Of a stretch of 43,929 nt of DNA, positions 3,633-39,451 are shown in pieces. The notes beneath the pieces were generated by a model. The model was not told the origin of the DNA. It did not search any database and saw only the letters and a program-made list of their open reading frames with translations. Both the position numbers and the translations under genes were made by a program. The first letter of the stretch is position 1. Every line of letters begins with the position of its first letter. This stretch comes from a virus. The DNA lies in the IMG/VR virus record IMGVR_UViG_3300047325_000020, positions 1-43,929 of that record. One strand, 5' to 3'.

Positions 3633-3655
3633 AGGGAATTATTTACTTGACTTAC
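3633..3655 (+). repeat. Left terminal inverted repeat
   Basis: 23 bp, beginning AGGGAATTATTTAC, identical to the reverse complement of 4466-4488. It encodes the last codons and TAA stop of the truncated transposase. Confidence 0.85.
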
Positions 3656-4184
3656 TAGCATCTTGAGCAGCCTTTGCAATCTTGCGTTTGCGGCGGATAG
3701 CGGCTTTGGTCTTAGGTTTGGGTTTGTACGCGAGGACAATATCGGTGATGGCGTCGAGCGTCTCGTCGATCTCTACGATACCTTTGAGTTTGTCGATGCT
3801 GTCGGGCGCGGAGCAAGCCTCCCGGAGCCGGCCCAGCATAAACCATGCCGACTTTTGAGTGATCCCAATTTCCTTGGCGAGTTGCATAGAGCTAATACCT
3901 TTGCGGGAAGTTACCAGCAAATACATTGCATAGAGCCACTTATGCAACGGGATGTGCGACCGCTCGAAAATGGTCCCGGTACGGACGGTATAGGTGCAAT
4001 CACAGGCGTTGCAGCGGTAGTAGCCCTGATACTTGCCGCCCATCGTCGTGATGCGCTCGCTTGACTTGCACTCAGGGCACATGGAGCCTTTGGGCCAGAG
4101 ACGGCCCTCTAGGTATATCCGGGCCGACTCCGCATCGGGAAAACGCTCGAAAAGTTGGAAGGTGGAGATGGTGGACTTGCTCAT
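3639..4184 (-). CDS. Truncated IS1595-family transposase: zinc ribbon and HTH only
   Basis: 181 aa, against about 300 in the intact family. A zinc ribbon (C36, C39, C58, C61) is followed by the highly typical TVRTGTIFERSHIPLHKWLYA (66-86) and a helix-turn-helix (about 99-122). It then reaches VEIDET (137-142), where the first catalytic Asp of the ISXO2-like DDE domain sits. Instead of the family's YVGG continuation the chain goes into a Lys/Ala-rich tail (KPKPKTKAAIRRKRK). The catalytic core is therefore missing. Start ATG 4184 overlaps the upstream stop (TAATG). It could bind the terminal repeats without transposing, as a dead-end repressor or a domesticated DNA-binding protein. That role is inferred. 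Confidence 0.85.
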   Translation of the reverse strand: MSKSTISTFQLFERFPDAESARIYLEGRLWPKGSMCPECKSSERITTMGGKYQGYYRCNACDCTYTVRTGTIFERSHIPLHKWLYAMYLLVTSRKGISSMQLAKEIGITQKSAWFMLGRLREACSAPDSIDKLKGIVEIDETLDAITDIVLAYKPKPKTKAAIRRKRKIAKAAQDASKSSK

Positions 4185-4408
4185 TAGAGTCTCTTGCCCC
4201 TGAGCCCAGCCACGGTGCCGCTGTAGACATTTCCTTTGCTACTCTCGCTGATATCCACGCGGATATAGTCATCAGTGACCTTGGTGGTGCGGAGATTGTC
4301 GTTGAGTGCCACCGTCAGTTCCCGTCGAGAATTGAGGCCGTCAATGGTCGCGGTTACAGGGCCGTAAGGGTGGGGATTGCAGCGGGTGATGTGCAGTCTG
4401 TAGCTCAT
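4184..4408 (-). CDS. 74-aa passenger protein of the element, unknown
   Basis: The start ATG 4408 is chosen because AGGAG lies six bases upstream. A longer frame begins at 4474 inside the promoter and is unlikely. The protein is beta-rich with many Thr and Val (VTATIDGLNSRRELTVAL, DDYIRVDIS, NVYSGTVAGL). It is the first gene of the leftward unit, directly behind the promoter at 4446-4474, and is coupled to the truncated transposase by TAATG. It is not part of any IS1595 element I know. An antirestriction or DNA-binding role would be guesswork. Confidence 0.65.
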   Translation of the reverse strand: MSYRLHITRCNPHPYGPVTATIDGLNSRRELTVALNDNLRTTKVTDDYIRVDISESSKGNVYSGTVAGLRGKRL

Positions 4409-4445
4409 GTTATCTCCTAAGCGGGCTGATTGCCTCACTGAGATA

Positions 4446-4474
4446 ATAGTAGATGACTTACTAACGTAAGTCAA
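4446..4474 (-). promoter_or_regulatory. Strong leftward promoter with overlapping operator-like palindrome
   Basis: Reading the minus strand: -35 TTGACT (4474-4469), a 17-base spacer, -10 TACTAT (4451-4446), close to the sigma-70 consensus. An inverted repeat of 8-bp arms, TGACTTAC and GTAAGTCA around GTTA, covers 4473-4454, that is the -35 box and spacer. The outer arm lies in the element's terminal repeat. A protein that recognises the terminal repeat would therefore also occlude this promoter, and the truncated transposase encoded 270 bp downstream is the obvious candidate. Both boxes and the palindrome are visible. The regulation is inferred. Confidence 0.7.
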
Positions 4475-4488
4475 GTAAATAATTCCCT
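4466..4488 (-). repeat. Right terminal inverted repeat
   Basis: A perfect reverse-complement copy of 3633-3655. Its inner end supplies the -35 box and one arm of the palindrome of the leftward promoter. Confidence 0.85.
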
Positions 4489-4637
4489 TTCATTTGCTCC
4501 CTTGCGCGCAGGCGGTCCCGCTCCGCCTCAAGCGCCGCAAAATGGGCCTCGACCCCCCGCAAGCGAGCTTTGGCTTCGGCTGGGGGATTTCCATGCCCTA
4601 AACCCAAGCAAGCAACGCTGGGGCTTATAGTAATTCC
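4489..4637. promoter_or_regulatory. Divergent intergenic region with a possible leaderless rightward promoter
   Basis: 149 bp between the leftward and rightward units. A TATAGT -10-like box at 4626-4631 lies six bases before the ATG at 4638. No -35 match and no ribosome site are seen, which would fit a leaderless transcript starting at or near the ATG. On the minus strand a short coding-like coiled stretch (VEAHFAALEAERDRLRAREQ) runs into the element end at 4488. It may be the remains of a gene cut by the insertion, but there is no clear start, so it is not annotated as a gene. Confidence 0.4.
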
Positions 4638-4823
4638 ATGACCACTCCGCAAGCCCACTTGATGCACAAACAAGAATACGAATTGCGCATCCAACTCAAA
4701 CAACACAAAACAGAAGAGATAAAGCGTCTAATCCGCGAACGCGAACAGCGCACAGGTCAGATTTTAGTTGCGGAACTGCCCAAGCCCGTGCTAGGTTCGA
4801 AACGAATTCACGCGCGAAAGTGA
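4638..4823 (+). CDS. Small charged protein at the head of the late unit
   Basis: 61 aa. The middle is strongly helical and charged (KQEYELRIQLKQHKTEEIKRLIREREQRTG, about residues 11-40), coiled-coil-like, with a short Pro/Lys tail. It has no ribosome site, and the TATAGT box six bases upstream suggests leaderless expression. An in-frame internal Met is at residue 9. Its stop overlaps the next GTG (GTGA). Its position before the terminase genes suggests a packaging or regulatory role, but no family is recognised. Confidence 0.55.
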   Translation: MTTPQAHLMHKQEYELRIQLKQHKTEEIKRLIREREQRTGQILVAELPKPVLGSKRIHARK

Positions 4824-5026
4824 TAGACTTGCATCCAATGTTGATGATGCCCAACCCGCTCACCAAACCCGTGGTTATCCTCCAGTTGCGCGTCGTTGCG
4901 CCACGCAGGCCCGCCACTGTGCCCGTCTTTGCTGAGTACGCGCCGGGCAGATTGCGCAAGATTGAAAGCTACGTTGCGCACGCCGGGGGCGTTTGCACAC
5001 GATCCGAGTCAGAGAGGGCACGATAA
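4820..5026 (+). CDS. Small unknown protein upstream of terminase
   Basis: 68 aa from GTG at 4820, overlapping the previous stop. Met-rich start (MIDLHPMLMMPNPL), then beta-like VVILQLRVVAPRRPATVPVF, and a basic Ser/Arg end. Its TAA overlaps an ATG that opens an 11-codon frame (5026-5061, MSAAINWTPER) with GAGG upstream, and that frame stops exactly one base before the terminase small-subunit ATG. The mini-frame could be a coupling leader or a decayed terminase N-terminus. No function recognised. Confidence 0.45.
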   Translation: MIDLHPMLMMPNPLTKPVVILQLRVVAPRRPATVPVFAEYAPGRLRKIESYVAHAGGVCTRSESERAR

Positions 5027-5061
5027 TGTCAGCCGCGATCAACTGGACGCCGGAGCGATGA

Positions 5062-5538
5062 ATGCCAGCCGCCGAATGGAATCCGGTAATTGACGACATT
5101 CTCGCCGCAATCGCTACAACGCCAAAATCATTAGAATCAATATGTTCTGAGCTTGAATCAGCGCCAACCGCGAGAACGGTTTACCGCTGGATTGAGTCGG
5201 ATGCAGAATTATGTCAGAGATATACGCGCGCGAAAGCAGCTCAATTACAGGTGCTTGCCGATCAACTGATTGACCTTGCGGATACTGACCGCGTTTGTGA
5301 GAAAGTCACAATCAAACCAGACGGTTCGCGCGAGGTTGTGATACTGGACCAAGTTGAGCGCACCAAGTTGCAGATCGACACACGCAAGTGGCTGCTGTCC
5401 AAACTCGACCCGAAGAAGTACGGCGACAAGGTGCAGCAGGAGCTTAGCGGGGAGGTTGGCATTAAGACCGTCATTGTGCAGCCGGATGTGAAAATTGAGC
5501 GCGAACGGCCTGCAATGAAGCCTGAGTTTGGCGAATGA
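5062..5538 (+). CDS. Terminase small subunit
   Basis: 158 aa from ATG 5062, with GGAG six bases upstream. An N-terminal helix-turn-helix region carries the typical pattern S-L-x-x-I-C-S-E-L...PTARTVYRWIESD (23-46), followed by QRYTRAKAAQLQVLADQLIDLAD (52-74), a long oligomerisation helix, and then RTKLQIDTRKWLLSKLDPKKYGDK, a signature of Sf6 gp1/Terminase_5-type small subunits. The C-terminal beta end (IKTVIVQPDVKIE) is also usual. It recognises phage DNA and delivers it to the large subunit encoded next. A 51-bp gap containing an eight-G run (5543-5550) separates the two. Confidence 0.88.
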   Translation: MPAAEWNPVIDDILAAIATTPKSLESICSELESAPTARTVYRWIESDAELCQRYTRAKAAQLQVLADQLIDLADTDRVCEKVTIKPDGSREVVILDQVERTKLQIDTRKWLLSKLDPKKYGDKVQQELSGEVGIKTVIVQPDVKIERERPAMKPEFGE

Positions 5539-5589
5539 GGCCGGGGGGGGCAATAGGTAATAAGTATATTAATACCCTGATCTTTATCA

Positions 5590-7233
5590 ATGTCTGGCTG
5601 CGTGCTATCATGGCTATCTATGCCACATCCCGCAATAAGCGTTGACGGAACGCTCGACACGGCGAAACTCTGGGAGCCCACAGCCAAGAACAAAATCATT
5701 CGCTCATCGGACGCGCGCAACCGGCTGCGTGTGGGGGGGACGGGATCGAGCAAGTCATCCGACGCGATGATGGAAGTGGTGCAGAACTACCTGCTGCGCT
5801 TCCCTGGCTGCTTTGGCCTGATCTTGCGCCGGACGATGGACGATCATCGCAAGGCCAATATCCCCGACTTCAAGGCTTATGTTCCTCAAGAGTTATATAA
5901 ATTCAATGAATCGCTTGCGATAGCGACGTTCTACAACGGTAGCCAGTTGCACTTTGGGCACATGACCAACTTCAGCCCGAAGGATTTAGCAAGCTATCAA
6001 TCGGCCAGCTTCCCGGTCATCTTCATCGACGAGTGCGGATATTTCCCTGGCGAAGTGTGGACGTGGATGATCTCCCGTAATCGCGTCAATCCTAGTTGCA
6101 AGCAGGATTCGGCCGGCAACTGGCCGCGTCCGACGATGCTAGGTGCCTGCAACCCGATTGGAGCGCATTGGGGCTGGTATCAGAGCATGTTCCGCGAGAA
6201 GAAGCCGGAGGATTTGCCGGAGGGATCGCGCAAGGACGTGCATGGGCGCTGGTGGTCGCCGAAAGGTGAGGAATGGCGGCTTGAGTACGATCCGTTTGAG
6301 TGGGATTACGTGCATTCGACGATCATGGACAATCCGCACATGCTCGAGAAAGACCCTGACATCTTAGAGCGGTTGAATGGGCTGCCGCAGGGCCAGCGGG
6401 AGAAGCTGCTCGACGGCTACATGGATTCGATGGTTGGGCAGTATTTCGATTGCTTCGACCCGAGTTATGACGTGATCAACCTGCGCGACGATCCAGACGC
6501 GATTATCTGGCAGTATTGGCAGCCGCGCTGGTTGGGATGGGATTGGGGCCGCGCGCATTGGAATGCTGTGTTCTGGTTCACCAAGGCGCTGGTCAGGCGT
6601 GCCGGCGGCGAGTATCACATGAAGACGGTCTGCTATCGGGAGTATGTAGACCGTGGCCGCGATTACGTCGAGATGGCTGAGGTCGTGGCTAAGCTGACGC
6701 GCATGGGGCTGCCAGGTGGCCGCGACGAGGACAAGGCGAAGGGCTGCGATTACCGGGCGGCATACTTCAGCCATGAGAAGTTCGCCAAGCAGATGGAGGC
6801 GGAAGCGCCGGCGGCGAAGTTGAGCAAGTATTTAATGGACAAGGGGCTTTCTGGAGTAACGCGGGGCACAACAGACAGAATTGGACGCGCATCGCTGATG
6901 TATCACATGATCAAGCGGCGAGAGTTGGTGATACTCGATTCGTGCCCGGAAGCAATCAGGGCGATTCCTCAAATGACGCGGGACGAGGACAACCTCGAGG
7001 ACGTGCTGAAGGTGGATACCAAGGCAGACGACTGCTATGACGGATTCAGCCTGGGCTTGTTCGGGGAGTTGGGCAAGCGTCCCAAGCCGCAGGAGGAGAT
7101 TGACCGCGAAAAGCTGGAAGCGGCGGCAAAGATTGGCAGGCAGGAAGAAATGCTGGTCCGATTCCGGTTGACGCATGAGTCAGAATCGCAGCAACGGACA
7201 GCGGAAGAGCGCCGGCCTGATCATTGGGAGTGA
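5590..7233 (+). CDS. Terminase large subunit (packaging ATPase and nuclease)
   Basis: 547 aa. Walker A is RVGGTGSSKSS (47-57, Lys55), Walker B is FPVIFIDE (141-148, Asp147/Glu148), and the coupling motif is LGACNPIGAHWGW (184-196). The RNase-H-like nuclease begins at LGWDWG (Asp318), and a late acidic cluster is DDCYDGF near the C-terminus. These make it the motor that cuts concatemers and pumps DNA into the procapsid through the portal encoded at 8811. Neither ATG 5590 nor ATG 5620 has a good ribosome site, so the start is uncertain. The C-terminal ~50 residues are charged and probably contact the portal. Confidence 0.95.
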   Translation: MSGCVLSWLSMPHPAISVDGTLDTAKLWEPTAKNKIIRSSDARNRLRVGGTGSSKSSDAMMEVVQNYLLRFPGCFGLILRRTMDDHRKANIPDFKAYVPQELYKFNESLAIATFYNGSQLHFGHMTNFSPKDLASYQSASFPVIFIDECGYFPGEVWTWMISRNRVNPSCKQDSAGNWPRPTMLGACNPIGAHWGWYQSMFREKKPEDLPEGSRKDVHGRWWSPKGEEWRLEYDPFEWDYVHSTIMDNPHMLEKDPDILERLNGLPQGQREKLLDGYMDSMVGQYFDCFDPSYDVINLRDDPDAIIWQYWQPRWLGWDWGRAHWNAVFWFTKALVRRAGGEYHMKTVCYREYVDRGRDYVEMAEVVAKLTRMGLPGGRDEDKAKGCDYRAAYFSHEKFAKQMEAEAPAAKLSKYLMDKGLSGVTRGTTDRIGRASLMYHMIKRRELVILDSCPEAIRAIPQMTRDEDNLEDVLKVDTKADDCYDGFSLGLFGELGKRPKPQEEIDREKLEAAAKIGRQEEMLVRFRLTHESESQQRTAEERRPDHWE

Positions 7234-7240
7234 GGACGGA

Positions 7241-7435
7241 ATGACCGAATCGCAGCGATTAGCGCAACGCGGGCTTCGCATCTTGGCTGACCAAGGCTGG
7301 CCGGAGCATGAGGCGGTCGCGCTTATGAATACCTTCATGGAAGCGGGCGCTGCGCTGGTTACGGAGCGATTGCAAGCCGAGGCGGCACAAAAGGAATCGC
7401 TTATCCAGCGGGTCACCAGCGGGGTGATCCAGTGA
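7241..7435 (+). CDS. Small unknown protein, 64 aa
   Basis: ATG 7241 is chosen over an ATG inside the terminase gene (7175), because GAGGACGGA lies just upstream. Helical throughout (SQRLAQRGLRILADQGW, EHEAVALMNTFMEAGAALVTERLQAEAAQKESL). It is coupled to the next gene by GTGA. Small helical proteins between terminase and portal are common in P22-like and related phages, but this one matches no family I recognise. Confidence 0.6.
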   Translation: MTESQRLAQRGLRILADQGWPEHEAVALMNTFMEAGAALVTERLQAEAAQKESLIQRVTSGVIQ

Positions 7436-7827
7436 GTCTGCGCCGCTGGCTTTCCGACGTCCTTACGGCATCGCGCTATTGCCAATCGCTTGAACAGCGC
7501 ATCATCCAGGAACGCCAGGACATGACCGAACGGCTGGGCGAAAAGGATGCCAGAATCAAGGAGTTGCGCACAGAACTTGCGGGGCTGAAACTGGAATCTG
7601 ATAGGATGCGTTTAGTTCTCATGCCTTTAGGGAGTCCGGCGGGGGCGATGTATGCGGAACGGTTCAACCGCGAGCAGCGACCGCAGACGCACACGCCTGA
7701 GTGGGATGGGCCGGAAGACTGGCAGAGCGAATTGCAGCGGATGATCAAGCAGGAGGAAGCAGCCGATGGCACACACAGCGAGCGACGGGAAGCAGTTCAC
7801 GAACCGGCCACCGATGCGTCAGCATGA
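7432..7827 (+). CDS. Coiled-coil protein, unknown
   Basis: 131 aa from GTG at 7432, overlapping the previous stop. Residues ~20-60 form a clear coiled coil (LEQRIIQERQDMTERLGEKDARIKELRTELAGLKLESDRM). The rest is Pro/Glu/Gln-rich, including EWDGPEDWQSELQRMIKQEE. It overlaps the His-rich gene by 62 bp. Its place between terminase and portal suggests an accessory role in packaging or head assembly (inference). Confidence 0.6.
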   Translation: MSLRRWLSDVLTASRYCQSLEQRIIQERQDMTERLGEKDARIKELRTELAGLKLESDRMRLVLMPLGSPAGAMYAERFNREQRPQTHTPEWDGPEDWQSELQRMIKQEEAADGTHSERREAVHEPATDASA

Positions 7828-28710: not shown

Positions 28711-31700
28711 GTGAAGCGCATATTGATCGCATTCCTGCTGCTGTTCCCCGTCGCTGCTGCGGCGCAGTCGTATTGCGGTCTGCGGCAGGATAACGTGACC
28801 AATGCACTCGGTCAGGCAATCCCCAACATCGCGGTTACTTATTATTCCCAGCCCAGCTTGGCTCCCGCCACAGTGTTCAGCAGCACAACGTGCGGCACGT
28901 CTACGGCCAATAACGTGACATGCAACGGCGCGACTTGCTCCAATCCGCAGACAACCAACGGACTTGGCGCTGCCTATGCGTACCTTGCACCGGGGCTTTA
29001 CACGGTCACCTACTCCGGCGCGCAGATTCAGACGCAGACGTATGTGGACCAGAACATTCCCGCGTCAGGAAGCAGCAGCGCGGGGTCAATCATTCCATCG
29101 CCGCAATTTCAAGTGCCTTACTTTTCCAGCCCTGGCACTGCGAGCGCGTTGACGGGAAGCACGGGCGTAACGACGAACGGACTTGGCACGCTTACTGCTA
29201 CGCAGTTGAATGCCGCCCAGTACGACATGAACTGCGGCGGCAGCATAGGCCTCGGACCGATGCTGAGCAACGGTTCTGGAGTCCTCGACATTAACAATCC
29301 TTGCGGCGTCGGAATGAGCTTCTTTCCTTCTGGCACGCTGGACCCCGGCGCTGGCGTGATGATGAGCACCAGTGACGACAATGGCGATCTTGGGCAACCG
29401 TTTTTGCAGGTGCATCACTTTAGCTACGCTTCTACACTCAAGAATCTGACAGGCATTCAACTTAAACCATCGTTCTCTAACAGCCTTTCCCTTCCTTCCC
29501 CTGTGGGCATCGACGCGGCTTTGACCAGTTCAGGCGCTTCGATCAACGCCATGACAGGAATTGGTGGTGGCCAGAACTACACATGCTCCGGCAGCACCGT
29601 AACAATTACCGGCGGCACTTTGGCTAGTGGCGCACCCCCGTCATGCACCGCTACTGCATCATCCAGCGCGATTTCATTGTCATGCTCCGGGGCGAACAGT
29701 TACACCGTCCCCCCGCTGGTGACAATCTCCGGATGCACAGGCGGCACATTTGCGAACCTGTCCGGCTATCCATCGCTGGCAACGGACCTGACCGAAACCA
29801 GCAGCCTGATTCTGGACCCGGCGGGGAACTTCAATTTCGGGCATGTGGCGCTCAAGAATTACACGGGACCGGCTAGCGCTGTCTTCAATATCGACTCCAC
29901 CGGCAACGTGACAGATGCGCTCTGCACTTCGGGCCAGTTCATAAAAGGAGATGGCACGGGATGCGGCGCAGGTGGCAGCGGCGCACCCACCGGCTTACTC
30001 GGCAACCCGGTCACACTTGGAGCGGGACCGGCATTCAGCGTGCAGCCAAACATTTTCGACGCCACGCAATTTAGCGGCGCAAACACCATTGCAAAGATTC
30101 AGGCGTGCCTGGCGGCTGCGCTGGCGGCTGGCGGTGGATCGGCTGGAGGTGTCTGCGATGCGAGCGGTTTCAGCACTACGGCGGGCATCACAAGCTCAAC
30201 CGGCTTCACGGTGGGCAATTCCGGGGGCACCTCGGAAGTATTAAATCTTCCTGCCGGTGGTTCATTTCAGGGAACGATGACCGGCGGCACCAACTCGATG
30301 CTGACGCAGTATCAGAACACGACGATCACCGGCCCCGCAGGAAGCGGAATCGCCAATAAGACTCAGATTGCGGTTGATGGCGGGACATCGGCAAACTATA
30401 TCTATAACAGCGTAGGCGGCGCTTCCGGCGACTACTTCGCGGTCGATGGCCTTGCTGTTTACAACAATGGCGCAATCACAGCATCGGGCATCGGCGCACT
30501 CTACCAAGGCTCGGCCGATGGCACCACGTTCTTTCACATGCCGATTGAGGATCGCTTCGATACCTACGGCGCAAAGTTCGACGGAACTTGCTGCGGGACG
30601 ACACACGCATTCTCGCAGTTCAATTCAGCTAACGTGGCTGGCCTTACCCCGGTGTGGATTAATGATGGCGTGAGCACTGTCGGCAAGACGCAGGGACTCA
30701 ATTTCATCTCCGATACCTTCGTGCATCCGGGCGCGGGACTGCCAGTCGTCAAAGTCACGGATACAACCGGGCAGCCGTTGCTGGACACACATTTCTTCGG
30801 CTCCTACATCGAAACAAATTCAACCGATACAACCTCCGCGCTGATTACTAATTCGGGCGCAAAGGCTCTCGGATTCTTCGGTACAACCATCCACTGCAAC
30901 GACGCTTCCCGCGCTCCGTTTCTGACCTCGGACAATAGCTACAACACGCAGATCACGGTGTTTGACCTGGAGTATGGGACTGGCGGCGTAGGGTGCGGCA
31001 CTTCGGGATTCTCTGCCATCGTCAACAACTTCACTGGCCACACCGTCGTAACGGACTCGAATAATGCGGTGGCCATGTACTTGAGCGGCAGGGCATGGAT
31101 GGAGGACGCAACCATCTGGTCACTGCGCGACCCGACGCAGGCTGCCAGCAGCGGTCAGAATTGCTTGCAGATCGACACGATGGGCTTCATCACGAACACC
31201 GGCTCGGCCTGCAGCTCTGGCGGCGGCGGGAGTGTATCCGGCGGAACAGCGGGCTACGCGGCCATTTTCGGCTCAGCGACCACGATTACCAGCGGCGTGC
31301 CTTTGGCGAATGCGGTAAGCGCGAACCAATATCCCTGCTCGACGGGTGCCGGGACTGGCGTGTGGAATCCCTGCTCGTTTCCAACATCAGCGTTGGTCAT
31401 AGGAACAAACAGCAGCGCGGTCCCGGTTGCGGCGACAAGCGCGAATGTCGCTGGCGTCCTCTGGACCTACGCCAACAACACATCGGCAACGGGCGGCACA
31501 GGCACAGGCACCGTGACATGCTTGACTGCGACTTGCACGAACCTCAGCGGATCGTACTCAGTGGTTGGCGGGACGTTCACCACGGGCACGCTGTTGACGC
31601 TGGTTTGGCCGACCACCACCACGGCGTACAAGTGCTCCGTATCGCAGAACGGCGGTGCGGCTTTCTATGGTCTGGGGCACGGTGTGGCCACGGCAACAGG

Positions 31701-31773
31701 CATGACGATCACCAACACAGTAACCGTCACTGGCGTCACCGTCAGCTTTGATTACACTTGTTCGGAGTATTGA
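28711..31773 (+). CDS. Exported beta-helix fibre/spike-like protein
   Basis: 1020 aa from GTG 28711, with GGAG upstream. Residues 1-19 are a textbook Sec signal peptide (MKRILIAFLLLFPVAAAA followed by QS). The next ~200 residues are Gly/Ser/Thr-rich with many Cys. Around residue 450 begins FDATQFSGANTIAKIQACLA, followed by GGVCDASGF, which resembles the entry helix of pectate-lyase-type right-handed beta-helices of tailspikes. The rest is beta-rich, up to a C-terminal CSEY. Cys pairs suggest disulphides formed outside the cytoplasm. Phage tailspikes normally lack a signal peptide. Confidence 0.7.
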   Translation: MKRILIAFLLLFPVAAAAQSYCGLRQDNVTNALGQAIPNIAVTYYSQPSLAPATVFSSTTCGTSTANNVTCNGATCSNPQTTNGLGAAYAYLAPGLYTVTYSGAQIQTQTYVDQNIPASGSSSAGSIIPSPQFQVPYFSSPGTASALTGSTGVTTNGLGTLTATQLNAAQYDMNCGGSIGLGPMLSNGSGVLDINNPCGVGMSFFPSGTLDPGAGVMMSTSDDNGDLGQPFLQVHHFSYASTLKNLTGIQLKPSFSNSLSLPSPVGIDAALTSSGASINAMTGIGGGQNYTCSGSTVTITGGTLASGAPPSCTATASSSAISLSCSGANSYTVPPLVTISGCTGGTFANLSGYPSLATDLTETSSLILDPAGNFNFGHVALKNYTGPASAVFNIDSTGNVTDALCTSGQFIKGDGTGCGAGGSGAPTGLLGNPVTLGAGPAFSVQPNIFDATQFSGANTIAKIQACLAAALAAGGGSAGGVCDASGFSTTAGITSSTGFTVGNSGGTSEVLNLPAGGSFQGTMTGGTNSMLTQYQNTTITGPAGSGIANKTQIAVDGGTSANYIYNSVGGASGDYFAVDGLAVYNNGAITASGIGALYQGSADGTTFFHMPIEDRFDTYGAKFDGTCCGTTHAFSQFNSANVAGLTPVWINDGVSTVGKTQGLNFISDTFVHPGAGLPVVKVTDTTGQPLLDTHFFGSYIETNSTDTTSALITNSGAKALGFFGTTIHCNDASRAPFLTSDNSYNTQITVFDLEYGTGGVGCGTSGFSAIVNNFTGHTVVTDSNNAVAMYLSGRAWMEDATIWSLRDPTQAASSGQNCLQIDTMGFITNTGSACSSGGGGSVSGGTAGYAAIFGSATTITSGVPLANAVSANQYPCSTGAGTGVWNPCSFPTSALVIGTNSSAVPVAATSANVAGVLWTYANNTSATGGTGTGTVTCLTATCTNLSGSYSVVGGTFTTGTLLTLVWPTTTTAYKCSVSQNGGAAFYGLGHGVATATGMTITNTVTVTGVTVSFDYTCSEY

Positions 31774-34700
31774 TGCGCAAACGGTTTATCCCATTTCTGC
31801 TTCTACTCGCACCGCTGGCTCAAGCCCAGAACGGAGGCATCTTCGCTGCGCCTCCGCCGATTGCCAGTTTGACCCTGTCGAACACGCCTGCGAACGCTGT
31901 GCAGCCGTTCTATCCGGGCCTGTCGATTCCCTCGTCTGACTTCCGCTACATGCCTAGGCACACCAACTGCGGCGGCGGGTCGAATCAGCAACCTTGTACT
32001 GCGGCTCCGGCGGGACTCTCGACCGAGGTTCCCGTCCAGCTTTACAAGAACTGGACCAACCTTTACAGCCGCCCGCTGTTCATTCGTTTCGAGTCCGACG
32101 AAATGAATCCGTGGGACTGGTCCTGCAATTTCGTTCCCGTGGGCACGCCGATTCGCGGAACACCTACAGTTCCCGGCCTGACATGGAGTACGAGCGGCGG
32201 CACAACTACGGTCTACACCACGGCAGCGGCTCCCGGCGGCACGTTTTATGTTTGGGGTGGGTTGGCTTCCGATGGCTTTATGAATCCGTCCACGCCGACT
32301 GCCGCTACAACGCCTTACACTGTTTCCTCGTCAGTTGCGGGCGTGAGCTTCAGTTTCGTGACTGGCGCGGCGGCGGGAAGCGGCTCAGACGTGTTCTGGT
32401 GGACTCTGGCCTCGCAATGGTATCCAACGCAGTTGACTGCGCCAACCTGTGCATCCGGCGCTGGTCAGCCACCGGCAACCGCATGGGTGGATGGCGCGAC
32501 GGGCATGATTAAAGCCAACCCGCTCATCATGGCCACGGTAGGCGCTGATCTGCAATCCGCCTACACCGCGAACGGTCACTACATCGGGAACATGACCGGC
32601 AGTGGCACCTTTACCGGCGTGGTCCCGCATCCGGCGGTGTCCTATCCCACGGTTGAACTGCCCATGTGGAACACGCTGATTGCTTCGCTGGGCATCGGCG
32701 GCCAGATTCTCGGCACGGAGATCGGCAACGAGCCGGACAATTACACGTCGCAGTGCATCACAAATCAGTGGTGCTCACGGGCATCGTTCTATGGCGCTTA
32801 CTCTTCATCGCTGAATGTGGCGATCATCAATCCATTGTTTCCCGGCTCTGGCCAGACGCCAACCAGCGGAACGACGGTTTATAACATCACTGACACCGGC
32901 CCAAACGCAGGCGGAGGAACACGGGCCAAGATTGCACTGACGGTCACCAACGGCGTTTGCACGGCAGTTTCGATTACGACAGCAGGAAGTCTTTATTTCA
33001 ACCAGACGCTGCCCTTTTTCGACATTCCCGGCAACATTCCGACGATCGGCACCAACTGCCAATTGATGCTGCAATCGGAAAGCTGGATGAACGACTTTCA
33101 GGACATTGTGGCTGACCTGAACGCGAACAGGATCACGCCTCCGGGCGGCGGCTATATGAATCCGTCTGAAGCGACGAGTTCTTACGCGCCACAGTTCTAT
33201 GGCTCAGCCACGAATGGCTCGACAACCAACGACGGCTACGGACCTGGCGGCGGCGCACCACCCTCGATTCCCAACGAGCTGGTGAATATGTTCCCAGCCG
33301 GAGGATTGGACGGCATCACGACCTACTCGCAGCACGCCTATCCGCTGGGCACTCAGGTATTCTGCCCCGCCTACCCGATTTCGAGCATGACTCGCGTTGG
33401 CAACACGTTCCCGCTGACCTCGACGACCACGGTGACGACATCCGCGCCGACCAACTTTGCGACCACGATCAATTTGGGCGGATTGACTTATAGTTCCTCG
33501 AGCGGCCTTGTTACGGCCTCGATTGCCGACTCGGACACCATAGCGGGTGGCCACACCTGGGCAAACAACGTCGTGACCATGAACGTCGGATCAACACCGA
33601 ATGTGCAGGTGGGCGAACAGATTCAGACGAACGGCTGGACAACAGACACGGGACTCAATGGGCAGCCCCTGATCGTGCAGTCTGTCGGCGCGACTTCGTA
33701 TACGGCAAGCTGGCCTCTCTACACCAACTCGCTTGCAGACCCCGGCACGGGCTACGATCAGCCCTACATTTACTCTGGTGCCACAATCAACGTTACCGGC
33801 GTGGCTGACTCGACTTACAACCTGAGCGGCGTGACAATCGCCAGTATCAATCCCAAGACGCGCACCGCGGTCAACGGCGTGACCGGAGCGACGTTCACTT
33901 ACACCACAGGCTCCGCGACACTGGGCGCGTCCTCGACAGGCGGCTCGTTCATCATGACCGGGGAGCAAGCCATCCTGGTGACAGGCACGCCCATCGGCGT
34001 CAACGGGACGGATATGCAGTTGCTCTCCACCTTCGGATGCCAGAACTTGAGTTCCAACGCTTACGTCTATCCGCCCTATGTCTACCCACCCTTTGGAAGT
34101 GCTACCACGAGTGCCTATCCGGTCTGCGGAAGCCATCAGAACGGATACCTCTCTCCGAACTTCCTGCAATTCGGAGCGCCAACCGCGATCACATGCTCGA
34201 CGCCGACCACATGCACCTTCCAGCAGACGGGCGCTGCGGATTCCGTCGCCAGCGGGACGCTTGAACTTGTGACCGGCACAACGTCGAACACCAATGGCGC
34301 TCTTGGCGTGGTCAAGGCCCCGAACTGCAATGCGCAGGATGTGCTGACGATTCCCTCGACGCAGACCAAAGGCGTGGCGCTCAATGCGCCGAAGCAGATT
34401 GAGCTTGACGGCCTGAGCATTGGCACCTATACGGGCGGCGGTGGCGCGACACCCTACAGCAACACCGCCCGCCTGCAATACCGCATTGGCGAGTGGAACT
34501 GCTGCTCTCCGGCCACGCATGGGATTTCTGACTCGATTCAGGCCGCGCTCTATGAAACGCTGTTCGATCTGGACGGCGCTACATGGAACGGCATCAACGG
34601 GACGCTGGGATCAACTGGCCTTGTCTCCCCGGCCTCGTCCTTCCCGCTTTCCGGCTTCGACGGCACCAACATGCACACCGGCGAATCAACCGTCTACGCA

Positions 34701-35528
34701 CAATGCACCTACAATTTCACGCCGATCACTGTGGGCGGAGCAAACGTGATTCAGCTATTCGATTCGACCAGCATGACCGGGCCTGCCTGCCAGGGACCGT
34801 ATTACGGTCACTACATGGAGTTCCTGTTCATGGGCGCACAGGGCACGACCGGAAACCCAACCTCATGGCTTCCGCTGACCGGAACCACGGTCAATCAGAA
34901 CCTCTCCGCATGGGCGATTCAAAACAGTTCTCTGAGCGATAGCCACAAGCACGTCATGCTCATCAACGCGAGCGAGGCTGAGGGCGGTAATGTCAAGCTG
35001 ACAACCACCGGGCTGACCACAGGAACCGCCACCACACTGCAAGCCACCAACTCGAATTTCCAGATTGCGCCGACGCTGACCACGATCAGCGGGACAACCG
35101 CGACCTTCACTGTACCCTGCATCGCACAGCCCTCAACCACGCCCAGCGCGTTCAACATCAACTTCAACATGCCCTTTCAACTGAGCGGATACAGCGCCGC
35201 CGGCATCGCAGATGGCACTTGGGTAACGGTGGCCACGCATACCACGGCGACGACAGGCTGCATCAGCGAGCCATTTACGGCCACGGTGGCGAGCGGGACG
35301 CCCGGAAGCTACTCGATCCAGGGGGTTGCCACCGAGGGATGCGGGCCACTGCTTGCGACCAACCCCTATTTCTGCACCTGGGGCAAGAGCATTTCCGGGC
35401 TGACGATGGACGGAAGTTACTCAGGCGCTATGATGGGCACATACACGCCCACGCCGCTGACTGCGGTATCGAACGTGTTCACGGTGTATGTGCCACCGCT
35501 GAGCGAAGTTATGCTGGATATTCATTGA
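31773..35528 (+). CDS. Exported glycoside hydrolase, GH79-like, with inserted beta module
   Basis: 1251 aa. ATG 31773 overlaps the previous stop (TGATG). A Sec signal (RKRFIPFLLLLAPLAQAQ) is followed by a (beta/alpha)8-like domain. TEIGNEPDNY places a likely acid/base Glu at 320, and YRIGEWNCC...GISDS...AALYETLFDLDG a likely nucleophile Glu at 907. These match the two GH79 (heparanase, bacterial beta-glucuronidase) signatures. In known GH79 enzymes they are ~115-120 residues apart. Here they are 587 apart, with Thr/Ser/Gly-rich sequence and a recurrent module (about 33525-33765) between. The C-terminal beta domain ends PPLSEVMLDI, as GH79 enzymes do. Probably degrades host polysaccharide; substrate unknown. 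Confidence 0.72.
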   Translation: MRKRFIPFLLLLAPLAQAQNGGIFAAPPPIASLTLSNTPANAVQPFYPGLSIPSSDFRYMPRHTNCGGGSNQQPCTAAPAGLSTEVPVQLYKNWTNLYSRPLFIRFESDEMNPWDWSCNFVPVGTPIRGTPTVPGLTWSTSGGTTTVYTTAAAPGGTFYVWGGLASDGFMNPSTPTAATTPYTVSSSVAGVSFSFVTGAAAGSGSDVFWWTLASQWYPTQLTAPTCASGAGQPPATAWVDGATGMIKANPLIMATVGADLQSAYTANGHYIGNMTGSGTFTGVVPHPAVSYPTVELPMWNTLIASLGIGGQILGTEIGNEPDNYTSQCITNQWCSRASFYGAYSSSLNVAIINPLFPGSGQTPTSGTTVYNITDTGPNAGGGTRAKIALTVTNGVCTAVSITTAGSLYFNQTLPFFDIPGNIPTIGTNCQLMLQSESWMNDFQDIVADLNANRITPPGGGYMNPSEATSSYAPQFYGSATNGSTTNDGYGPGGGAPPSIPNELVNMFPAGGLDGITTYSQHAYPLGTQVFCPAYPISSMTRVGNTFPLTSTTTVTTSAPTNFATTINLGGLTYSSSSGLVTASIADSDTIAGGHTWANNVVTMNVGSTPNVQVGEQIQTNGWTTDTGLNGQPLIVQSVGATSYTASWPLYTNSLADPGTGYDQPYIYSGATINVTGVADSTYNLSGVTIASINPKTRTAVNGVTGATFTYTTGSATLGASSTGGSFIMTGEQAILVTGTPIGVNGTDMQLLSTFGCQNLSSNAYVYPPYVYPPFGSATTSAYPVCGSHQNGYLSPNFLQFGAPTAITCSTPTTCTFQQTGAADSVASGTLELVTGTTSNTNGALGVVKAPNCNAQDVLTIPSTQTKGVALNAPKQIELDGLSIGTYTGGGGATPYSNTARLQYRIGEWNCCSPATHGISDSIQAALYETLFDLDGATWNGINGTLGSTGLVSPASSFPLSGFDGTNMHTGESTVYAQCTYNFTPITVGGANVIQLFDSTSMTGPACQGPYYGHYMEFLFMGAQGTTGNPTSWLPLTGTTVNQNLSAWAIQNSSLSDSHKHVMLINASEAEGGNVKLTTTGLTTGTATTLQATNSNFQIAPTLTTISGTTATFTVPCIAQPSTTPSAFNINFNMPFQLSGYSAAGIADGTWVTVATHTTATTGCISEPFTATVASGTPGSYSIQGVATEGCGPLLATNPYFCTWGKSISGLTMDGSYSGAMMGTYTPTPLTAVSNVFTVYVPPLSEVMLDIH

Positions 35529-35536
35529 GAGGGATT

Positions 35537-36790
35537 ATGAAACGAATCGCGTTGCTGACACTTCTATTCGCCTGCTCATCGCTGCTTGTTTTGGGACAGC
35601 AGACAATCCCTACGCCGAAATTTGCCGCGATGTTTACCAGCAGCAACGGAACCGGGAACCCTGGCACATGGACGCCGTTGGCAGGCAGTGGCGGCTCGAC
35701 AATTCCCTATACACCGCCCCTATCAGTGGCCATGATGTATTCGACAGATGGGACTGGCAACCCCGGCACATGGGCATTTTGCACGGCTACGACTTGCGGG
35801 GGCGGGGGCGGTTCCGGCGTAACCAGTGTATCCGGCACAGCTAACCAGATCGACGTGGCGAACGGCACCACAACGCCGATAATCTCGTTTGATGCTGCGG
35901 CGCTGGCAAGCCTCGGGGGTGCCCCGCTGGCGTCTCCTACCTTTACCGGCACGGTAACCATCCCTGGCGGCGCTTCCATTTCTGGATACCTGACCAGCGC
36001 CACGGCTGCTTCCACCTATGCACCACTTGCGTCTCCTACCTTTACGGGAACAGTGACGATTCCGACCGGCGCAGCGTTGGCGACTCCCGCTTCGGGCGTG
36101 ATTACCAACCTGACCGGCACTTGCACAGCCTGCACCGCGAATGCGGCGACTACTGCGGGCAATCTGAGCGGCACACCCGCGCTGCCCAGCGGCACAACGG
36201 CAACGACGCAGGCAAGCACCGATAACACCACCAAGCTCGCAACCGACGCCTTTGTGCAGACGCTCGCAACCGTAAGCACATGGAACAATTCGCAGGTTGG
36301 CGCGGTGACCACAGCAGAAGGCACAGCGCCGACGACGAATCAGATCAGGGTTGCCTCCGTCTACGTTCCGCAGCCGTTCACCGTGTCCAATCTTGCCTGG
36401 TCGGTGACCACTGCGGATAATTCAACCAACACCTATGACTTTGGCCTGTACGGTCCAGGGTGCCAGGCGGGCGCGACGAGCATTCCATTGGTTGCGCACC
36501 TCGGCTCGACGCTGGGCAGCACATTCGCGGGAACCACCGGGCGCAATCACGGAGCGATTACAGGCGGTCCGGTCACTGGTGCAGCGGGCTACTACTGCCT
36601 TGCATGGACTTCCGGCGGCGCGACTCCGGCTGCGGTTCTCGGTGGCGCAACAGCATCGAATTATGCGCCCTTTGCCGTAGCAACAGCAGTCTCGCAGACC
36701 AGCACAGGCGGCGCTCTACCTTCGACAATCACTGCGCCCGCTACGGCGCTTACGGTCAACAGCCCGATTGTTTTTGTGCAGGTGTACTGA
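35537..36790 (+). CDS. Exported fibre-like protein with tail-fibre repeats
   Basis: 417 aa from ATG 35537, with GAGAGGG upstream. The first 21 residues look like a Sec signal (KRIALLTLLFACSSLLVLG). An L-F-A-C lipobox variant is possible but weak. The body has two copies of A-P-L-A-S-P-T-F-T-G-T-V-T, the classic tail-fibre repeat, then TTATTQASTDNTTKLATDAFV, another tail-fibre repeat, and a C-terminal beta sandwich (VPQPFTVSNLAWSVTTADNS, YDFGLYGPGC). It therefore combines fibre repeats with an export signal. The role is receptor binding or surface display (inference). Confidence 0.72.
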   Translation: MKRIALLTLLFACSSLLVLGQQTIPTPKFAAMFTSSNGTGNPGTWTPLAGSGGSTIPYTPPLSVAMMYSTDGTGNPGTWAFCTATTCGGGGGSGVTSVSGTANQIDVANGTTTPIISFDAAALASLGGAPLASPTFTGTVTIPGGASISGYLTSATAASTYAPLASPTFTGTVTIPTGAALATPASGVITNLTGTCTACTANAATTAGNLSGTPALPSGTTATTQASTDNTTKLATDAFVQTLATVSTWNNSQVGAVTTAEGTAPTTNQIRVASVYVPQPFTVSNLAWSVTTADNSTNTYDFGLYGPGCQAGATSIPLVAHLGSTLGSTFAGTTGRNHGAITGGPVTGAAGYYCLAWTSGGATPAAVLGGATASNYAPFAVATAVSQTSTGGALPSTITAPATALTVNSPIVFVQVY

Positions 36791-37253: not shown

Positions 37254-37520
37254 ATGGTAGAAATGACTGAAAAGGCGCTGGCGTGGTTCCGCGAACTCCC
37301 CGCATGGATACCGATCTGCGGCTCTCTGATCTTCTGCGCCCTGTGGATAGGGCAGCACTACCAAAGCATCACCGACCGGCTGGATACTCTGGAGCACCAG
37401 ATGAAGGATGTGCAGGAATATCTGCGCAATGACCACAAAAAAGGTATGTCGGAGTTTCCCGATTCGGAGTTACAATTGCCCCCAGCGCCCCAGGATGCGA
37501 AGATTCCACCAATGAGGTAA
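37254..37520 (+). CDS. Membrane-anchored coiled-coil protein (spanin-like candidate)
   Basis: 88 aa from ATG 37254, with AAGGGG upstream. One membrane span (WIPICGSLIFCALWIGQHY, 18-36) is followed by a coiled coil (SITDRLDTLEHQMKDVQEYLRNDH) and a Pro-rich end with PPAPQDAKIPPMR. N-in topology with a periplasmic coil is typical of inner-membrane spanins, and the next two genes are exported. The last codons sit in a 13-base repeat also found at 37846. The gap before it (37189-37253) holds two small hairpins, CCGGC/GCCGG and ACGC-GAAA-GCGT, of unknown use. Confidence 0.5.
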   Translation: MVEMTEKALAWFRELPAWIPICGSLIFCALWIGQHYQSITDRLDTLEHQMKDVQEYLRNDHKKGMSEFPDSELQLPPAPQDAKIPPMR

Positions 37521-37522
37521 GT

Positions 37523-37852
37523 ATGAAATTAGCCCTGTTAGCCGCTTTCTTGGCGCTGCCAATGGCAATGCCCGCACAGTCCGCTAAAGTTGTTGCCTTG
37601 TCAGACGCCGATGCAAAGCTGGCTAAATCCCTGTACGAGCAGAAAGCGGCCGTAGAAGCCAAGATCGACGCATTGAACAAGCGAATTCACGAGCAGTCTA
37701 AATGGACTATGGATTTCGAGTACAGCGAGGATTTCCGCTTCATCGTTCCCAAAGACGCTCCGACCTTCAGGCCCAACTATGCCGGAATCCTGGACTGTAC
37801 TACACTTACCATCAAACCGACGCTTACAACAGCACCGGGGACTTTCCAATGA
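37523..37852 (+). CDS. Exported small coiled-coil protein
   Basis: 109 aa from ATG 37523, with GAGG upstream. The signal peptide MKLALLAAFLALPMAMPAQS (cut after the Ala of P-A) is followed by a coiled helix (ADAKLAKSLYEQKAAVEAKI, about 31-50). The C-terminal end is beta-like with one Cys. The gene is bracketed by identical 13-base repeats (CCAATGAGGTAAG at 37509-37521 and 37846-37858). Possible partner of the 37254 protein in lysis, or the fifth of the exported group. No family recognised. Confidence 0.65.
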   Translation: MKLALLAAFLALPMAMPAQSAKVVALSDADAKLAKSLYEQKAAVEAKIDALNKRIHEQSKWTMDFEYSEDFRFIVPKDAPTFRPNYAGILDCTTLTIKPTLTTAPGTFQ

Positions 37853-39070: not shown

Positions 39071-39079
39071 GGAGGCATG

Positions 39080-39451
39080 ATGGCTTGGACCTATCAGCAA
39101 TCGACCGGCTACCTCACGGACGCCAGCGGAGAAGTCGTAGGGCAAGGCTACAGCGGCAATGGCGCGGATATGAACTCGCCGACTGCTGAGGGTGTAATCG
39201 GACATGGCCCCATCCCCCAAGGGGCCTGGACCATCGGCCCATTCGAGACGTATCCGCATCTCGGCCCGTTTGCTGCGCCGCTGACACCGGGCCCGGGCAA
39301 TGACATGGACGGAAGGCAGGGCGGCTTCTTCATCCACGGCGATAATGCGGAGATGAATCACACGGCGTCGGATGGGTGCGTTATTTTGGCGCATGATCTG
39401 CGCACAGAGATTGCCAACAGCGGAGACGTTGACCTTATCGTGATCGCGTAA
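39080..39451 (+). CDS. L,D-transpeptidase-like lysin (DUF2778-like)
   Basis: 123 aa from ATG 39080, four bases after GGAGG. The ATG at 39077 is too close to it. The sequence MAWTYQQSTGYLTD...GQGYSGNGADMN and, near the end, GGFFIHGD (81-88), then HTASDGCVIL (94-103) match the pattern of DUF2778/Tlde1-like proteins, with His86 and Cys100 as likely catalytic residues. In bacteria such enzymes act on peptidoglycan cross-bridges. Here, without a signal peptide and after the holin, it would be the phage lysin. The length is similar to the domain alone. Confidence 0.72.
   Translation: MAWTYQQSTGYLTDASGEVVGQGYSGNGADMNSPTAEGVIGHGPIPQGAWTIGPFETYPHLGPFAAPLTPGPGNDMDGRQGGFFIHGDNAEMNHTASDGCVILAHDLRTEIANSGDVDLIVIA

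Follow-up and report, generated by a model that had tools for sequence, protein, structure and literature searches.

The locus and its gene neighbourhood

The window analysed here is the whole 43,929-base IMG/VR virus record. Small and large terminase subunits are encoded at 5062-7233 (Pfam Sf6_terminase, E 2e-28; PHROG 979, E 5e-23), and the recombination genes YqaJ and ERF lie on the minus strand at 1163-2628. A protein with an IS1595-type transposase zinc-ribbon domain (PF12760, E 8.8e-8) is encoded amid the phage genes at 3639-4184, on the minus strand. Both contig ends (1-457 and 43479-43928) carry open minus-strand ORFs with low-complexity repeats; they resemble one gene across a circular junction, and a direct joint is out of frame. 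The terminase is uninformative about the host, since the nearest named phages share less than 30% identity with it (28% for the best among the matches listed). A terminase of this kind is absent from 96 Verrucomicrobiota genomes.

Downstream of the terminase and recombination genes extends a long run of rightward genes, most of them without a family match. Near its end, on the plus strand, lies the gene under study (31773-35528), which encodes a protein of 1251 residues matched by our GH79 profiles. Its ATG at 31773 overlaps the stop codon of the preceding gene and has a Shine-Dalgarno-like GGAG upstream. The gene is flanked by two fibre-like genes of the same strand, at 28711-31773 (1020 aa) and 35537-36790, the products of which both start with predicted signal peptides (MKRIALLTLLFACSSLLVLGQQ in the latter). 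Further along are possible lysis genes (37254-37852) and, close to them, a gene for a Tlde1/L,D-transpeptidase-like domain protein without a signal peptide (39077-39451; PF10908, E 2.8e-9).

The first 19 residues of the GH79-like protein (MRKRFIPFLLLLAPLAQAQ; 31773-31829, plus strand) have the features of a Sec-type signal peptide, namely, three Lys/Arg among the first six residues, a hydrophobicity of 2.49 over 10 residues and an AQA site. Signal peptides were judged by a simple rule, which this protein passes, and by eye. Signal-peptide-like N-termini are found on the window genes starting at 28711, 31773, 35537 and 37523, and also on fibre-like genes of two terminase-related contigs (L030:4371; L031, minus strand). 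On an unrelated contig, L063/G018 (IMGVR_UViG_3300044691_000045), where structural-type ORFs including a tape-measure-like one were recognized by inspection, six genes of the fibre cluster (L063 1963-13298) have a signal peptide, and one of the six encodes a GH79 protein. Across the contigs examined, the crude automatic rule assigned signal peptides to 9 of 31 Thr/Ser/Gly-rich genes versus 4 of 254 others, with six of the nine coming from the L063/G018 contig alone and with some peptides recognized by eye (35537; L031) being missed by the rule. Judging from its N-terminus, export of the GH79-like protein is fairly likely. It is a much more speculative suggestion that an environmental phage group routinely uses the Sec pathway of its hosts for fibre-type proteins, including GH79 enzymes and the loop-expanded protein of the window, either as a secreted adhesin- or depolymerase-like set or for loading onto particles after export, as opposed to cytoplasmic assembly. 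Provided that these signal peptides are genuine and functional, a testable question follows, that is, why phages would send fibre-type proteins via Sec.

Relationship to GH79 enzymes

Searches of the whole 1,251-residue protein against Pfam, PHROG and PDB sequences were empty, and excised cores yielded nothing beyond chance in the family and PDB libraries. GH79 proteins were therefore gathered for profiles of our own: the protein of viral contig L063 (PDB GH79 match at 1e-40), one protein from Opitutus and ~30 from Verrucomicrobiota genomes. The Opitutus protein came from a search with an alignment headed by the excised core, at an E-value of 1e-6 that is relative to the candidate stretches only. 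A pattern scan for EIGNEPD was discarded as a source of relatives because it returned mostly unrelated proteins, L063 alone being useful. The curated GH79 models PF03662 and PF16862 left the protein unmatched; this is a weak test, because the L063 GH79, despite its PDB match, itself reaches only 16.6 bits with PF03662, under the cut-off of 23.1.

A profile of seven GH79 sequences matches the uncut protein with 27.3 bits (E 1.7e-8 in a set of 202), and a profile of 32 sequences does so with an E-value of 8.2e-6 at a nominal Z of 100,000. Overall, our profiles score 27.3-27.5 bits, versus at most 7.1 bits for shuffles. In a search of the window and related contigs (1,272 ORFs), the only above-threshold matches are this protein and the GH79 of L063/L080, the latter being a member of the very 32-sequence profile that matches it. 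The pieces aligned by the seven-sequence profile are colinear (309-347, 898-1109 and 1211-1250), with the last one insignificant alone in the uncut protein. When scored separately, pieces 290-360, 880-1251 and 1000-1251 each give 12-23 bits (16.6 for 290-360 and 14.9 for 1000-1251), versus 7.1 for the best reported shuffle; the main insert, 532-880, has no GH79 score (0.3 bits). With EIGNEPD masked, the protein keeps 16.9-18.4 bits. Since both the separate pieces and the masked protein still score, the relationship is broader than one short motif; hhalign with the single sequence gave a match limited to the EIGNEPD patch (Prob 17).

Divergence is strong, with 20-28% identity. Exact-peptide searches of viral contigs found no close relatives, no close homologue turned up otherwise, and the contigs of terminase-sharing phages, which are mostly fragments, contain no GH79 relative. 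The earlier note had proposed a GH79-like catalytic domain, and the uncut-protein profile searches, together with the conserved anchor residues described below, bear this out. We consider GH79-like homology and fold highly probable from the sequence comparisons, and the protein is best read as a diverged member of the GH79 superfamily, within clan GH-A, with a retaining mechanism. That it is a host-type enzyme, as the note also had it, and was acquired by the phage is plausible.

Predicted barrel anatomy and the insertions

Anchors were checked by alignment in two or three MAFFT modes, which agree on GLSTE (81-85), beta2 (LFIRFES), EIGNEPD, QHAY (520-523), RIGEWN...GISD, GTNMH (964-968) and the last strand, VYVPPLSEVML. 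The consistently aligned residues are E85, N319/E320/P321, H521/Y523, E907/N909, S919 and N966/H968. The beta1-alpha1-beta2 portion of the barrel spans aa 80-108 (32010-32096; GLSTE with E85, then LYKNWTNLYSRPLFIRFES); in two MAFFT modes it aligns with G[IL]S[YT]E ... LRIG of GH79 proteins, and the beta1 strand is predicted. EIGNEPD (aa 316-322, 32718-32738) belongs to beta4 and holds the putative acid/base E320, with GNEP invariant in 26 GH79 rows. Beta6 (DGITTYSQHAYPL, aa ~515-527, 33315-33353) bears H521 and Y523, corresponds to [STRQ]HxY in all GH79 rows, where His and Tyr are invariant, and is a strand in both structure models. Beta7-alpha7 (aa 902-946, 34476-34610), with the putative nucleophile E907 (RIGEWNCCSPATHGISDSIQAALYE), aligns with RLAExNSxSxGGxxGVSDxFxSALW. 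Beta8, GFDGTNMHTG (aa 961-970, 34653-34682), contains H968 and is the alignment equivalent of the GH79 NFH motif, with near-invariant Gly, Asn and His columns. The first part of the C-terminal beta-sandwich follows at aa ~1000-1100 (34770-35072); the score for aa 1000-1251 is above all shuffles, and pLDDT reaches 70-90 in part of the region. All these elements are on the plus strand.

E320 in EIGNEPD and E907 in RIGEWNCC are located where the earlier note had placed them, 587 residues apart, and the stretch between them is indeed rich in Thr, Ser and Gly (fraction of 0.27-0.47 per 60-residue block). In 32 GH79 proteins the two Glu residues are 114-143 residues apart (median 122); thus, the excess of ~465 residues in this protein is real. 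Element-by-element spacings also exceed those of GH79, showing that the excess is distributed over several sites: from the acid/base to the beta6 His there are 201 residues (GH79 62-91, median 69, n=32), from this His to the nucleophile 386 (46-64, median 53, n=32), from the nucleophile to the beta8 His 61 (40 in GH79) and from E85 to E320 235 (median ~113). By site, the surplus amounts to 120 residues ahead of E320, ~130 from E320 to H521, 330 from H521 to E907 and 20 beyond E907, and the C-terminal sandwich holds roughly 120 more. The note's interruption of the hydrolase between barrel strands stands by alignment, but not as one block, since E320 and E907 are separated by two insertions that flank a recognizable beta6 (DGITTYSQHAYPLG).

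Insert 1 (aa ~120-232, 32130-32468) is assigned to the beta2-alpha2 loop, insert 2 (aa ~359-432, 32847-33068) to the beta5-alpha5 loop and insert 3 (aa ~531-868, 33363-34376) to the beta6-alpha6 loop, all on the plus strand and on the basis of the E85-E320, E320-H521 and H521-E907 spacings, respectively. Insert 1 is placed with the least certainty, since the beta2-beta4 stretch aligns poorly. Insert 5 (aa ~1101-1225, 35073-35447, plus strand) belongs to the C-terminal sandwich and corresponds to a gap in the GH79 rows ahead of the last strand, NVFTVYVPPLSEVMLDI. The alignments support the view that beta2, beta5 and beta6 are each followed by a large barrel insert, which would thus occupy a catalytic-face loop, given that the known element order of (beta/alpha)8 barrels puts these loops there.

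Two AlphaFold2 runs, with alignments limited to window and locus sequences, gave low-confidence models (mean pLDDT 39 and 40; pTM 0.42 and 0.46). The alignment for the first model had no GH79 rows over beta1-beta3; the second started from aa 77 with full rows and brought little gain. The modelled core keeps the expected order of strands and helices, parts of the C-terminal sandwich are confident (pLDDT blocks of 70-90), and the inserts are not resolved. A Foldseek search of the PDB ranked the beta-glucuronidase of Acidobacterium capsulatum and the heparanase of Burkholderia first or nearly so, at low TM-scores, with other clan GH-A enzymes (GH51, GH44, GH30) among and below the top matches; these matches are partly circular, because the model alignments included GH79 sequences. 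Neither a meeting of E320 and E907 nor the location of the inserts between strands can be proved with models of this confidence.

As for the source of the inserts, the earlier note had described a V-x-M/T-x-x-x-T/N module of the phage's own virion proteins. The pattern occurs twice between the two Glu residues, versus 1.3 occurrences expected in shuffles (p ~0.36). Insert segments do not align with the neighbouring proteins above shuffles, and a profile of the best candidate module, which combines the 27973 protein with homologues from two further phages, scores the 1,251-residue protein no better than its shuffled copies. With the shuffle comparisons and the profile negative, a module shared by the inserts and the neighbouring genes was rejected. 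The ~80-residue insert 2 after beta5 has weak PHROG similarity to phage structural (tail) proteins (E 0.0022), and the main insert has no match in the PDB. Segments aa 660-780 (33750-34112) and 1100-1225 (35070-35447) are weakly alike (z 3.5, 1 of 200 shuffles), a likeness too weak for them to be considered a repeat family. There is no sign of recent foreign insertion, because codon-position GC is broadly uniform between core and inserts.

Active site, proposed function and known systems

The acid/base expected in GNEP at the end of beta4 corresponds to E320 (EIGNEPD), and E907 (GEWN...GISD) to the nucleophile, which in GH79 enzymes ends beta7 within an ExN motif upstream of G[IV]SD. Both Glu residues, Asn and Pro of GNEP, His and Tyr of beta6 and His of beta8 are kept. 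By contrast, the Gly-Gly of the nucleophile loop is not: one near-invariant Gly column is a gap, and the protein reads CCSPATHGISD. In heparanase, this Gly pair makes backbone contact to the carboxylate of the substrate uronate. The lost Gly bears on the substrate and not on GH79 membership as such; because of it, specificity for glucuronic acid is unproven. Since both Glu and the other active-site residues are retained, catalysis is likely to be retained as well, and we regard hydrolase activity as quite probable. E85 aligns with the Glu of the GH79 G[IL]SxE motif, and Glu45 of AcGH79 contacts the 4-OH of the substrate (PMC10785800). We infer that E85 is equivalent to Glu45, and H968 to His327, of AcGH79.

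The reading we favour, and hold to be somewhat more probable than not, is that the gene encodes a GH79-like retaining hydrolase with expanded loops, which would be exported and act on polysaccharides that are extracellular or belong to the host. It would comprise a (beta/alpha)8 barrel, with E320 as acid/base and E907 as nucleophile, and a C-terminal beta-sandwich, with large Thr/Ser/Gly-rich insertions in the sandwich and in the loops that lead from beta2, beta5 and beta6 to the next helix. Since loops of this kind line the catalytic side of a barrel, the extra sequence would most likely wall the active-site cleft or provide binding platforms beside it, which would fit a polymeric substrate. 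The coupling of surface binding to enzymatic digestion that the earlier note suggested is conjectural. The enzyme, a product of a fibre-type gene cluster with a Sec signal peptide, would be exported and might hydrolyse glycans surrounding the host, be they capsule, exopolysaccharide or others of uronic or neutral type, as a depolymerase either soluble and secreted or associated with the cell surface or the particle.

The same GH79-like depolymerase could instead form the body of a virion-borne, receptor-destroying spike or fibre, in which the hydrophobic N-terminus is unused for export or export is compatible with assembly. Phage domains that degrade polysaccharides usually reside in tailspikes, the gene occupies a fibre slot, and in related phages (by the terminase, 26402 and 27973 genes) this slot holds fibre-like ORFs with another body. 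However, no virion-anchoring N-terminal domain is recognizable with PHROG or Pfam, which novel anchors would escape, and the protein has a canonical signal peptide of the kind counted above mainly on Thr/Ser/Gly-rich genes, so that we consider the spike unlikely. The loss of one member of the nucleophile-loop Gly pair, the heavy expansion of the loops and the strong divergence would also be compatible with a catalytically dead scaffold, that is, a GH79 barrel turned into a binding protein, either an adhesin or one for surface display. This is rather improbable: drift would not favour the retention seen for both catalytic Glu, for the Asn preceding the acid/base, for His and Tyr of beta6 and for His of beta8. 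A similarly low probability is given to an auxiliary host-fitness enzyme, a secreted polysaccharidase that would feed the infected cell or lysogen rather than act against its coat, a role that has been proposed for glycoside hydrolases of soil viruses. The signal peptide would suit such a role, and soil viruses are reported to encode glycoside hydrolases, one of them with tested endomannanase activity (PMC6786970), whereas the gene is located inside a fibre-type cluster and other carbon-use genes were not noticed in the window.

Compared with known enzymes, the preferred loop-expanded hydrolase has the same order of barrel and sandwich elements as AcGH79 beta-glucuronidase of Acidobacterium capsulatum (PDB 3VNY, 5G0M) and the Burkholderia heparanase (5BWI, 7PR9). 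It shares with them the GNEP acid/base motif, ExN followed by G[IV]SDxxxxAL, HxY of beta6, NxH of beta8 and the C-terminal strand VxxPxxS. It differs in the Glu-Glu spacing, in the deletion of the nucleophile-loop Gly and in length (1,251 versus about 450 residues). WceF of Pantoea stewartii, a secreted hydrolase of stewartan whose fold resembles that of tailspikes, is a functional likeness, being exported, phage-depolymerase-like and trimming exopolysaccharide; it is not a relative, since it is a beta-helix trimer of another fold, with a Tat signal, encoded by a bacterial gene (PMC7949094). The GH5 endomannanase of soil viruses from a permafrost gradient is likewise a glycoside hydrolase of environmental viruses, but belongs to another family, and the term 'GH79' is absent from the main text of that study (PMC6786970).

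A tblastn search of 50,697 named phage records with two viral queries found no GH79 relative, and an IMG/VR scan led by the GH79 alignment confirmed one contig, that of L063 itself. Titles and abstract openings of the papers retrieved on GH79 and phages do not suggest a phage GH79. Glycoside hydrolases of soil viruses are already known as such (PMC6786970); the present protein would be a GH79-superfamily variant, with several insertions on the catalytic face, encoded in a fibre-type cluster of a phage. A GH79-type barrel with insertions in three catalytic-face loops would broaden the known tolerance of this fold.

The GH79 of L063/G018 comes from an unrelated phage and offers a parallel in setting: its gene sits between fibre-like genes of a fibre-type cluster, and its product has a signal peptide and is Thr/Ser/Gly-rich. 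Its core, by contrast, is intact and without inserts, with a Glu-Glu spacing of 114, and is preceded by a large additional N-terminal region of its own. In the L063 protein (encoded at 3841-7476), this region contains the motifs GVNESD and LETEGG and possibly represents a second glycosidase-like barrel in tandem.
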